Shown piece after piece: positions 22,451 to 50,812 of a DNA stretch of 64,000 bases (its first letter is position 1; every line of letters starts with the position of its first letter). A model generated the notes under the pieces. It made no database searches and was not told the DNA's origin. It saw nothing but the letters and a program-made list of their open reading frames with translations. The stretch is from positions 248,001 through 312,000 of the forward strand of contig NZ_PVEO01000005.1 of the NCBI RefSeq assembly GCF_002973595.1. Reading direction: 5' to 3'. The position numbers and the translations under genes are program-made. Source of the DNA: Jejuia pallidilutea. GTDB taxonomy: Bacteria; Bacteroidota; Bacteroidia; Flavobacteriales; Flavobacteriaceae.

Positions 22451-24094
22451 TCACTTAGGCTCAATAGCCCCTAAACTTGGAATGTTTTTAATTACATTTC
22501 CTATAATATCTTTTTTTGGTTTTAATTCTAAAGATTGAATTAAACCGTTGGCATCACTTTCCAATAGTTTTACTAAAATGCCTTTATTCTTAATTAAAGA
22601 TACATTTTTAGGTATGTAATCTTCCGCTTTAATCCCTCCTTTATTTACAAAATCTGGATTCCCAAAAATTGGGGCTTCATCTACAATACCTACACCTGCT
22701 GGCCAACTTTTAGTATTGAGAAATAAATTATTCTTAAAAAAAACATTTTTTGCCAAATCTCCAGATACTTTATCTGGTTTGTATTGATCTCCCAAAACAG
22801 CTTTTGAATCGCCTTCTAAATAAAAAATATTATTTGCAATTAAAATACCATTACTAGTATTATCTATAGCAATTTTAGAAACAATTGTTGAGTCACTGTA
22901 AATAGTGTTATTATAAATATAAGAGTTTACAGGGCCTTTTCGTTCTTTGTTGCCACCTTGATAACCACTTAACCACAAAATTTTTCCTTCTTGGAATGCC
23001 CCGTTTTTACCTTTTATCCTGTAACCATCGTTTATACTAATGTTATAGCGGTACGCACAATTATAATTGTTACCTAATATTTCGCAAAAACCACCAGCAT
23101 TATAAGCGCTAATATTATATTGCAAAACAATATTATCACAGTTAAAATCTATATGGGCGCCAGCCGAATCTCCAGGGCCGTTGGCGTATAAGAATTCATT
23201 TTTTTCGATTAAAACATGTGAAGAACCCCAAGTCCATAAACCACTTCCGCGTCCCCATTTTCTTGTATCGTCGGCATTACCAGAATGCGAAATAGTATTG
23301 TTAGCAACATAAACTGATGTAACACCAGACATTTGAATACCTGGGCCTCCTGTATGTTTTACAACATTATCTAAAATCTTAATATTGGAAATATTTTTAT
23401 TAATACCTGTTAGTTTTATACCTGTATGAGACACGTTACTAATAGAACAATTCATGATTTTTACATCATCAATTATTGTTGTTTTGTTATTCATCACCCT
23501 AATGCCCCAGCCATATTTCTGGGTTCCGTTTGCTGTTCTTACTTCATCTTTGCCCCTATTAAAACCAGTGTTTTCATAATAAATATTATAAATGGTAATA
23601 TTCTTAATTACTAAATGCCCCATTGCATCTAAGTTGTTGTTCCTTACCAAAATACCACAGCGCATTTTTGAGTTTTGTTTGGAATCTTCAGAGTATCCAT
23701 TTGCTGTCAATTGAATATTACTAAGTTCTAAAAAACTAGAATCTTCAATTAAAACGCCATTGGGCAACCCTTTAAAATTAATTATAGCTGGACTTAAACT
23801 TTTGTTTGAATTCCACACAATACTAGTTATTACAATTGGTTTTTGAGCTGTTCCTTTTTTTCCAACAATAACAAGTCCGTTTGTATACGTTTCACCATGA
23901 GCCAATAAAAGTCTGTCTCCTGGTTTTAAATTTACTTTTGAAGCACGTTGTAAACTTTTAAAAGCATGCTTTTTAGAAATGCCAGTGTTTGTATCGCTTC
24001 CCGTTTTAGGATGCACAAAATAGTCTTTGGCAAACATATTGGTACAAAACAAAAAAACTGCAAATAAAATGATGGTTTTATAATATAAGGACAT
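22451..24094 (-). CDS. Secreted right-handed parallel beta-helix protein, possible polysaccharide lyase or hydrolase
   Basis: A 547-residue secreted protein with a signal peptide (MSLYYKTIILFAVFLFCTN). The opening YFVHPKTGSDTNTGIS and FKSLQRASKVNLKPGDRLLL is the usual N-cap of beta-helix lyase-like proteins. Then come repeated coils with Asn ladders (for example IDDVKIMNCSISNVSHTGIKL, ISNIKILDNVVKHTGGPGIQ, VYVANNTISHSGN). No T9SS tail is present, so it is likely periplasmic. It is the last gene of the minus-strand PUL arm. Beta-helix folds in PULs include lyases (PL6, PL9-like) and some glycoside hydrolases (GH28, GH82, GH110, GH120). I cannot place it in a CAZy family, so substrate and chemistry are open. 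I chose the ATG at 24094 because it begins the signal peptide. Confidence 0.75.
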   Translation of the reverse strand: MSLYYKTIILFAVFLFCTNMFAKDYFVHPKTGSDTNTGISKKHAFKSLQRASKVNLKPGDRLLLAHGETYTNGLVIVGKKGTAQKPIVITSIVWNSNKSLSPAIINFKGLPNGVLIEDSSFLELSNIQLTANGYSEDSKQNSKMRCGILVRNNNLDAMGHLVIKNITIYNIYYENTGFNRGKDEVRTANGTQKYGWGIRVMNNKTTIIDDVKIMNCSISNVSHTGIKLTGINKNISNIKILDNVVKHTGGPGIQMSGVTSVYVANNTISHSGNADDTRKWGRGSGLWTWGSSHVLIEKNEFLYANGPGDSAGAHIDFNCDNIVLQYNISAYNAGGFCEILGNNYNCAYRYNISINDGYRIKGKNGAFQEGKILWLSGYQGGNKERKGPVNSYIYNNTIYSDSTIVSKIAIDNTSNGILIANNIFYLEGDSKAVLGDQYKPDKVSGDLAKNVFFKNNLFLNTKSWPAGVGIVDEAPIFGNPDFVNKGGIKAEDYIPKNVSLIKNKGILVKLLESDANGLIQSLELKPKKDIIGNVIKNIPSLGAIEPK

Positions 24095-24149
24095 TGTATT
24101 ATTCTTCAATAATTATGGTTTAAATACTTTTAATTTGTATTGTAGATTT

Positions 24150-49028: not shown

Positions 49029-50580
49029 GCAGATTTTAGTCATTTTTGTTTTTGGCTTATTTTTTCTGAGTATTTTTTCTCAGAACGATAGTTCAAAACC
49101 AAATGTACTTTTTATTGTCTGCGATGACTTAAATGATTATCTAGGTGTATTTGGGGGACATCCTCAGGCAAAAACTCCAAATATTGATAAACTTGCGGCA
49201 ATGGGAATACAGTTTGTTAATGCGCAAACAAATGTTCCAGTTTGCTCACCTTCTAGAAACAGTTTTATTACTGGCGTCTATCCTCACGTTTCTAAAGATT
49301 ATGGTTGGACAGATCTGAAAAAACAACCAGTTTTAAAGAATAATAAAACTATTATGCGGCTTTTTAAAGAAAATGGGTATATAACTTTAGGAACTGGAAA
49401 AATATCCCATTGGAATAACGACACAGACTGGGATGAGTGGGGAATGTCTTTAAAAAATAATTATGGGCCTTTTTATTTTGATGGGGAAAAGAAAATAGCA
49501 TTGCCAACGGTACCTTCTCCTTATAATGAAATAGGTGCCGTGGACGGGTCTTATGGTCGGTTATCAGATGCGGGGATTTCACTGGGGAAAAATGGAGAGA
49601 AGGGCTGGGTCTATGGCTGGAGCGATGAACCTATGCGATACTTGAATGATGATGACAGAGATTTGATGCAAGATGAATTGCACGCAAAATGGATTGTCGA
49701 AAAAATTGGTGAACTTGAGGAAAAGGAAAAACAAAAACCGTTTTTCATGGGAGTTGGTTTTGTAAGACCACATACACCACTGCATGCACCTGACAAATAT
49801 TTCGATATGTTTCCAATAGATGATCTAAAATTGGAGTATTGGCAAGCTGAAGATTCAAATGATACCTTCTGGGATAATAATTTTGACACTGAACTTAAAG
49901 GACCACGATATAATCGTACACTTTTAGAATCTTATAATGGAGATAGAGAATTAGCTATAAAACACTTTTTACAAGCTTATTTAGCTTGCGTAGCATTTGT
50001 TGATGAACAAGTTGGCAAGGTAATCAACGCTTTAAACGAAAGTAAATTTAAGGACAATACAATAGTAATTTTTACAAGTGATCATGGTTGGCAAATGGGT
50101 GAAAAGAATTATTTGTTTAAAAACTCACCTTGGGAGGAAAGTGCAAGAATACCTTTAATTATTAAAGCACCTAATTTTAAGCAAGAATTAAGAGTTGAAC
50201 AACCCGTTGGTCTCATCGACTTATATCCTACTTTAATTGATTTATGTAATTTAAAGGGCGACAACAAAATCAATGATAAAGGTGGTGATTTAGGTGGGTA
50301 CAGTTTACAACCTTTACTTAAAAAAGATTTCAAAAACTGGGAAGGGCCTAACGGAGCGTTAACCGTTGTTGGCAACTATGGGGTTAAAACATCCACCGAA
50401 AGACAAAATTTCTCTTATCGAACTAAAGACTGGCGGTACATAATATATAGTAATGGTCAAGAAGAGTTATATAATCATAACAATGATTCTTACGAATTGA
50501 ATAACCTTGCAGAGCTAAAACAATACCAATCTGTAAAAAGAAAACTTAAAAGCGAAGTACTTGCGATTTTAAATAAATAA
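49018..50580 (+). CDS. S1 family sulfatase, iduronate-2-sulfatase-like (S1_7-like)
   Basis: A 520-residue exported sulfatase with a signal peptide (about 1-21). It shows [18 protein letters not shown], formylglycine Cys76 in [47 protein letters not shown], and [19 protein letters not shown] with the following [14 protein letters not shown]. This set is the pattern of the iduronate-2-sulfatase-like group (S1_7), which in marine PULs includes carrageenan and other galactan sulfatases. It overlaps the GH2 gene by 11 bp and so is translated with it. Last intact gene of the PUL. Confidence 0.93.
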
Positions 50581-50812
50581 AAATCGATAAAAAGAACCTT
50601 TAATTCATTAGTAATATTAGGTTTATTGTCTTACAAATAAGACAATGTACAGACCAATTCTTTCAATCCAGGAAAATTATGGCTAGATACTAATGTACAA
50701 CATATTAATTCGCACGGTGGCTGATCATTATATTACAATAACTCCTGTGTATTAGTATAGAGAACATAAAACAGCTGGAAATAATGATAATGAAGCTATG
50801 GTAGGTGTTTAA
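50581..50812 (+). pseudogene. Decayed N-terminus of a GH43 exo-beta-1,3-galactanase-like gene
   Basis: Directly after the last sulfatase, one frame reads a signal-peptide-like KSIKRTFNSLVILGLLSYK, a stop at 50638-50640, then SFNPGKLWLDTNVQHINSHGG, a stop at 50722-50724 and LYYNN. A frameshift follows and the next frame reads YREHKTAGNNDNEAMVGV, then a stop at 50810-50812. W-x-D-T-x-G-x-x-I-N-A-H-G-G-G followed by Y-W-x-G-E-H-K and Q/M-V-G-V is the start of the GH43 subfamily that includes exo-beta-1,3-galactanases. The rest of the enzyme is gone; 50813-50890 has no recognisable coding content. It tells what this PUL used to cut. Confidence 0.6.

Follow-up and report, generated by a model that had tools for sequence, protein, structure and literature searches.

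The 64,000-nucleotide stretch of Jejuia pallidilutea DNA considered here (contig NZ_PVEO01000005.1; hereafter the window, G000:C5:248001-312000 in a genome of 4.11 Mb and 34 contigs) harbors a two-armed SusCD/HTCS (hybrid two-component system) locus at window positions 22451-50580, which we read, with a probability of roughly 0.63 for the explanation as a whole, as a polysaccharide utilization locus (PUL) for a sulfated beta-1,3-galactan, either of the kind made by Codium and other Bryopsidales or a sulfated type II arabinogalactan. Taken by itself, the identification of the substrate as a sulfated beta-1,3-galactan is quite likely. The reading is built, at the level of sequence and predicted structure, on gene content, family relationships, folds, catalytic residues, the conserved linkage of a gene cassette and a GH43_24 pseudogene, and under it two GH128-like enzymes seem to have turned from glucan to the cutting of galactose chains. 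An earlier note on this DNA had listed SusC/SusD, a hybrid regulator, six S1 sulfatases, a GH2, an SGNH esterase and two Glyco_hydro_cc enzymes (here GHcc1 and GHcc2); open reading frames and Pfam matches place all of these genes where they had been reported. From the regulator outward, the minus arm carries HTCS, SusC, SusD, GHcc1, a protein with a type IX secretion system (T9SS) tail, an S1 sulfatase and a beta-helix protein, and the plus arm has the order S1, S1, GHcc2, SGNH, S1, S1, GH2, S1.

A first indication of the substrate comes from the sulfatases, all six of which do contain the CxPSR site that had been described as intact. Judged by sequence, the solved relatives of five of the six belong to galactose-sulfate families: two enzymes are S1_19-like, one is S1_15-like, one is S1_8-like, and one is S1_20-like, its matches 7ana and 7an1 being what we take to be the S1_20 enzymes BT1622 and BT1636; the best match of the sixth, 6hhm, is presumably an S1_7 enzyme. 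In carrageenan pathways S1_8 enzymes act on galactose-2-sulfate (Gal-2S), S1_15 on Gal-6S and S1_19 on 4S, and 6BIA and 6PRM are among the named S1_19A/S1_19B entries (PMC12549532; this and most other papers are cited from excerpts), and S1_20 and S1_15 act on Gal-3S and Gal-6S, respectively, according to the excerpted part of PMC10154612. Sulfatase family is a guide to sulfate position, not proof of it; the beta-1,3-galactans of Bryopsidales carry sulfate at C4, at C6 and, in Halimedaceae, at C2 (PMC7550628, in part). A genome-wide search with PF00884 gave 52 matches (51 above cut-off, two of them looking like halves of one gene), so that sulfatase richness is general in this genome.

Since the best or near-best relatives of these sulfatases come from carrageenan pathways, the target could be conceived as a carrageenan-like galactan, with S1_19 and S1_8/S1_15 acting as they do in the kappa/iota and lambda pathways. 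We regard this as highly unlikely, given that each hydrolase of the window locus fits another family and none is left for GH150, GH110, GH82 or GH16; the lambda cascade relies on GH150 and GH110 (PMC12549532, as excerpted), and this pair was not recognized among the locus hydrolases, all of which are assigned elsewhere, no GH150 model having been run. The mismatch with the agar, carrageenan and porphyran enzyme sets, already pointed out in the earlier note, is upheld; the absence of GH16 claimed with it holds for the window locus and not for the corresponding locus of some relatives, where GH16 is present.

The neighborhoods of relatives also bear on the substrate. A contig scan with GHcc2 found 88 relatives, 80 of which were kept as loci; within the DNA stretches examined, these loci contain an S1 sulfatase in 62 cases, a GH136-like gene in 19, GH16 in 9, GH43_24 in 6, galT in 4 and galK in 2. 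Two Belliella loci (L097 and L107) read GH16-S1_19like-GH136like-GH43_24-S1_19like-S1_15-GHcc2-galM-galT, and a Cecembia locus (L103) follows the same order from S1_19like on, with no visible GH16 and with galK-galT at its end. Ten of the searched genomes with GHcc2 loci have GH43_24; five were fetched and four read, all Algoriphagus (L177-L180), and 4/4 present on one strand the cassette GHcc2-HTCS-SusC-SusD-S1_19like-GH136like-GH43_24-S1_19like, followed in three by an S1_15-like gene, the fourth stretch ending earlier. GHcc2 is the only recognized endo-looking hydrolase in these four cassettes, an observation that gives the best support for its role as a galactanase. The GH43_24 homologue L107:5293-6426 matches 6eug (1.1e-109), which we take to be BT3683, as well as 3vsf (1.6e-52), the galactan 1,3-beta-galactosidase 7bys (4.9e-46) and the exo-beta-1,3-galactanase 5flw (1.6e-35). 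Closer to the window, the loci of genomes G069 (L171, L172) and G133 (L174, L175) are largely collinear with its own, G133 having GHcc1, a GH16-type gene and no GHcc2 in the stretches read. Together with the sulfatase relationships, these neighborhoods support the sulfated, galactose-containing, beta-1,3-linked target that had been proposed.

The window itself keeps a trace of the same exo-enzyme. The locus had been drawn to position 50812; its last intact gene ends at 50580, and the stretch beyond covers a GH43_24 pseudogene remnant, which a search of the genome itself located at C5:298605-298745 (window 50605-50745) with two stops. Against the intact gene of L039, from an Algibacter sp. metagenome-assembled genome, the remnant is 75% identical over 53 aa (tblastn, E 1.8e-20), and window 49001-50809 aligns with L039 by blastn at 89.7% over 1810 alignment columns, from sulfatase S1f into the remnant. 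In L039 the intact GH43_24 directly follows the S1f homologue, the same place as that of the remnant, and G069 (L171) and G133 (L174) also have an intact copy, in both cases at the distal end of the sulfatase arm. An intact homologue also exists elsewhere in the genome of the window, on contig C1.

Across the 397 genomes of the family, GHcc2 had a match in 31, of which 20 were left after dropping 11 that covered only the C-terminal sorting tail region; these 20 comprise 8 genomes with a close GHcc2 (at least 45% identity), genomes with GHcc1-type proteins (e.g. G133, G380) and genomes with divergent ones (G127, G049 and others, 31-37%). G069 and the genome of L041, which share an 803566-base contig, are probably one genome and are to be counted once. 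GH43_24 was found at E<=1e-50 in 17/397 genomes, and it co-occurs with Glyco_hydro_cc in 9/20 as against 8/377 (Fisher p 5e-9, uncorrected for kinship or for polysaccharide-rich genomes). Leaving aside the genome of the window, six of the eight overlapping genomes have both genes on one contig, ~3 to 56 kb apart (G127, G069, G049, G133, G260, G115), and two have them on different contigs. The search for GH43_24 in genomes of the GHcc2 loci took in 29 of them, 24 not of the open-ocean type described below and 5 of that type, and found the gene in 10 of the 24.

As for the proteins themselves, GHcc1 combines its match to 6uaq with a catalytic pair, Glu128 and Glu218, sitting in the acid and nucleophile motifs of GH128. 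Structure prediction, which the earlier note had proposed for the Glyco_hydro_cc cores, was run for GHcc2: the AlphaFold2 (AF2) model has a mean predicted local distance difference test score (pLDDT) of 92.8, its ten best Foldseek matches are all GH128 (subgroups I, III, II and VII; best 6ufl, TMt 0.79), and the catalytic E342 and E452 are kept in 50/50 aligned proteins, so that GHcc2 has both the GH128 fold and its catalytic Glu pair. The two cores are 40% identical over ~211 residues. Three features set GHcc2 apart from AmGH128_I and GHcc1, namely a loop, C346-C357, after the acid Glu, an insertion after HWYDW and a deletion after ITEF at the nucleophile; both Cys bounding the loop are found in 48/50 aligned proteins, and the division of Glyco_hydro_cc into clades rests on indels in 16 sequences and on this Cys pair, not on a tree with all GH128 subgroups. 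The conserved, beta-rich N-terminal domain of GHcc2 (residues ~20-265) has no Pfam match, and none of the best 50 Foldseek matches stands out as belonging to it. On balance GHcc2 is slightly more likely than not to be an endo-beta-1,3-galactanase of GH128 fold, and for GHcc1 the same activity is conceivable at slightly less than even odds. Two homologues carry long C-terminal extensions, CBM_35-like in L067:10001-13867 and made of MBG/YDG repeats in the 2221-aa protein L074:9974-16636.

These same enzymes are what speaks for a sulfated or branched beta-1,3-glucan as the target, with GHcc1 and GHcc2 as ordinary GH128 glucanases: their nearest solved relatives are beta-1,3-glucanases, and the glucan-binding residues of a GH128_II enzyme, as excerpted from PMC10956234, have GHcc2 counterparts in N341, E342, H410, Y412, E452 and the Trp platforms W297 and W314, with W297, W314, H410 and Y412 present in 50/50 aligned proteins. 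The surroundings, in contrast, consist of GH43_24, galM/galT/galK, a GH2 of LacZ type and sulfatases whose relatives are galactose-specific, and no GH17, GH81, GH30 or GH3 appears in the Pfam results read (80 of 153 candidate unknown neighbors were scanned, and the best 25 of 126 families considered). A glucan target is accordingly improbable, and the connection from GH128 to beta-1,3-glucan that had been made earlier is not borne out by context. Laminarin was rejected as the best reading on gene context.

The beta-helix protein, until now known by that generic label, is present as described and can be specified as a relative of GH136 lacto-N-biosidases. Its phmmer matches to GH136 reach 2.8e-10 and 8.6e-10, the best six Foldseek matches of its AF2 model (mean pLDDT 84) are all GH136, and D314/D321, invariant in 20/20 aligned proteins, align with D568/D575 of ErLnb136, given an inferred two-residue numbering offset; the catalytic domain thus has both an acid/base and a nucleophile Asp, the roles given to D568 and D575 in the excerpts of PMC7335108. 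According to the same excerpts, GH136 activity needs a helical GH136I domain or a partner subunit. No such domain was found in the 552-aa protein, whose residue 30 aligns with residue 247 of ErLnb136 and whose model, apart from the signal helix, contains no helical domain, a partner gene elsewhere not having been searched for; filing the protein under GH136 proper was therefore rejected, and we call it GH136-related only. It may tentatively be seen as exo-acting, perhaps as a beta-1,3-galactobiosidase. Among family genomes GHcc1 has matches in 18/397 at E<=1e-20, six of them full-length at 56% identity or more (that of the window included), and a GH136-like gene lies within ~4 kb of GHcc1 in 6/6 of these; G380, with a nearly full-length GHcc1 at 39%, gave no match to the GH136-like gene at E<=1e-30, and the remaining GHcc1 matches are partial or distant.

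A GH136-like enzyme next to S1_20, S1_15 and GH2 could also bring to mind mucin-like or keratan-type host glycans, all the more since GH136 releases lacto-N-biose (PMC7335108, in part), B. thetaiotaomicron uses S1_15 and S1_20 on mucin (PMC10154612, in part), GH29 and a SASA esterase each occur in 5/80 loci of relatives, and record names place some distant relatives in Porphyromonas and Alistipes. Such a target is very unlikely in our judgment, for the Pfam matches of the window locus include no hexosaminidase, no sialidase and no fucosidase, the linked gene is GH43_24 instead, and most named records belong to marine or other environmental genera.

If the substrate is indeed a sulfated beta-1,3-galactan, GHcc2 and perhaps GHcc1 would cleave the chain internally and SusCD would import the pieces; the sulfatases related to Gal-2S (S1_8), Gal-3S (S1_20), Gal-4S (S1_19, two enzymes) and Gal-6S (S1_15) enzymes would remove sulfate, and the SGNH esterase would remove esters. 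The GH136-related enzyme would then split off disaccharides (beta-1,3-galactobiose perhaps) at the non-reducing end, and GH2, whose residues 490 and 553 are both Glu as had been claimed, would carry out the last step to galactose.

Several observations weigh against this picture. The close GHcc2 genomes overlap with GH43_24 in just 2/8 as against 15/389 (Fisher p 0.04), the two being G069 and, with the gene elsewhere in the genome, G000; set beside 9/20, this means that the association holds for Glyco_hydro_cc relatives generally and is weak for close GHcc2. Among the 29 searched genomes of GHcc2 loci, GH43_24 was not found in 14 of the 24 that are not of open-ocean type and was found in 0/5 of those that are; it is likewise missing from the open-ocean-type loci, and in L109, among others, GHcc2 occurs while the cassette is incomplete. 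Genes beyond the fetched Algoriphagus stretches could weaken the argument that GHcc2 is the sole endo-enzyme there, and both GHcc proteins could act on beta-1,3-glucan because both keep the GH128 core. Finally, no enzyme for pyruvate ketals was recognized, and with its GH43_24 dead the pathway of the window may be altered.

We labelled as open-ocean type, from record names, 23/80 loci that share another sulfatase (cluster 3); within the DNA stretches examined, GH43_24, GH16 and the GH136-like gene occur in 0/23 of them. In these loci (L050, L054-L059, L061, L062 and similar ones) GHcc2 is flanked by two other sulfatases, most have SusC/SusD, and five genomes that were sized measure 1.1-1.5 Mb. 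Relatives of 47-52% identity occur in records named Opitutales/Opitutaceae (L102, L105, L106), hinting at transfer between phyla or at a binning error. Others belong to genera including Lacibacter and Pedobacter, whose habitats, as we presume them, suggest non-marine sources too. The chances are about even that the Cys-loop GH128-like clade is a widespread, undescribed family of endo-beta-1,3-galactanases with which Bacteroidota of coasts, of the oligotrophic ocean and of saline waters open up sulfated beta-1,3-galactans, often paired with a GH136-related exo-beta-1,3-galactobiosidase. In G127 and G049 the divergent Glyco_hydro_cc proteins are without the three features of GHcc2 and sit with GH16, GH43_24, GH43 and GH2, the G049 locus (L176) having GH115 and a melibiase in addition; in L173 such a protein is beside, and in L176 near, GH16 and GH43_24, and no sulfatase was recognized in the two 20 kb stretches from G127 and G049, in which not every gene was scanned.

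Table. Features of the locus in window coordinates, with predicted functions.
Feature	Position	Strand	Evidence or remark
GH136-related right-handed beta-helix glycosidase	22451..24109	-	phmmer 6kqs 2.8e-10; AF2 and Foldseek
S1 sulfatase a, S1_19-like, galactose-4-sulfate predicted	24150..25616	-	6prm, exo-4S-kappa-carrageenan sulfatase, 1.3e-109
Secreted, possibly glycan-binding protein, T9SS tail	25715..26527	-	Por_Secre_tail
GHcc1, GH128 subgroup I-like with CBM_4_9, lipoprotein-like N-terminus	26614..27990	-	Glyco_hydro_cc 192 bits; 6uaq 4e-36
SusD	28012..29559	-	Pfam
SusC	29565..32645	-	TIGR04056, 913 bits
HTCS hybrid two-component regulator	32775..36821	-	Pfam
S1 sulfatase b, S1_19-like	37097..38527	+	6prm 1.6e-104
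S1 sulfatase c, S1_15-like, galactose-6-sulfate predicted	38499..40100	+	7ozc 8e-198; S1_15A 9bas 2.7e-152
GHcc2, T9SS-tailed GH128-like, N-terminal beta-rich domain	40119..41984	+	Glyco_hydro_cc 122 bits
SGNH esterase	41998..42657	+	Lipase_GDSL_2
S1 sulfatase d, S1_20-like, galactose-3-sulfate predicted	42661..44076	+	7ana 5.2e-119; 7an1 5.5e-113
S1 sulfatase e, S1_8-like, galactose-2-sulfate predicted	44089..45564	+	9bb9 'S1_8A' 3.5e-106
GH2 beta-galactosidase, LacZ type	45867..49028	+	NF052611 1033.9 bits, cut-off 999
S1 sulfatase f, subfamily uncertain	49018..50580	+	best 6hhm 5e-47, weak, two stretches
Decayed GH43_24 exo-beta-1,3-galactanase remnant	50587..50809	+	in-frame stops, frame change, only ~first 75 codons

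The small T9SS-tailed protein has a homologue adjoining GHcc1 in L172 and L175, and the SGNH esterase a 62% homologue in L174. Beyond the GH43_24 remnant, two tRNA genes lie at window 50927-51137. On contig C1 of the same genome, the intact GH43_24 (L170, G000:C1:440001-460000) stands beside a GH2 46% identical to that of the window, together with a GH43-CBM6 protein, a major facilitator superfamily transporter and a mannitol-dehydrogenase-type gene. A second PUL on C1 (L168/L169, G000:C1:490001-530000) has a GH136-like gene (53%), SusC/SusD relatives (58/52%), sulfatases, a GH141-like beta-helix protein, an L-arabinose isomerase and an FGGY kinase, and has the appearance of a locus for sulfated arabinan or arabinogalactan.

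Should GHcc2 prove to be a galactanase, many proteins now recognized by a glucanase-type domain would have to be assigned anew, and the occurrence of the enzyme in ocean flavobacteria with small genomes would suggest that some sulfated glycan is turned over on a wide scale; the cassette of the Algoriphagus type has three recognized hydrolases (GHcc2, GH136-like and GH43_24) and lends itself to testing as one unit. No description of a GH128-type galactanase or of this gene order was seen among the matches listed, titles and abstract starts of open-access literature, which is weak evidence of absence. With the GH128 beta-1,3-glucanases (AmGH128_I, 6uaq/6ufl) GHcc2 shares the fold, the acid/base and nucleophile Glu and the Trp platforms, and it differs from AmGH128_I in the Cys-bounded loop, the insertion, the deletion and the galactan context. 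The beta-helix protein similarly has the fold and both catalytic Asp positions of GH136 lacto-N-biosidases (6kqs, 5gqc, 7v6m), from which it differs in lacking the helical GH136I domain, in an identity of ~20% in structural alignment and in its sulfated-galactan context. In the lambda-carrageenan CarPUL of Pseudoalteromonas distincta U2A (PMC12549532, as excerpted), S1_8 and S1_15 likewise prepare galactose residues for a GH2 beta-galactosidase, whereas its GH150 and GH110 are without counterpart in the window locus.

The verdict that no described pathway matches was incomplete, in that GH43_24, GH16, galM, galT and galK in the neighborhoods of relatives, together with the relatives of the sulfatases, place the locus beside the Bacteroides plebeius pathway for sulfated arabinogalactan (PMC8406133, here in excerpt). 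There, S1_8 and GH43_24 act on sulfated beta-1,3-galactan from the SusC-bearing loci PUL13 and PUL5; here, S1e is S1_8-like, and the GH43_24 that would pair with it survives in the window as a decayed remnant, is intact in L039, L171 and L174 and on contig C1 of the same genome, and is present in several loci of relatives. As far as those excerpts go, PUL13 has two sulfatases (S1_8, S1_14) and PUL5 has GH145/GH105 with GH43_24; in the window there are six sulfatases, accompanied by the GH128-like and GH136-like enzymes, and GH43_24 is dead. A PUL for sulfated arabinogalactan protein is a known kind of system, and it is the galactan specificity of its GH128-like enzymes that would be new.

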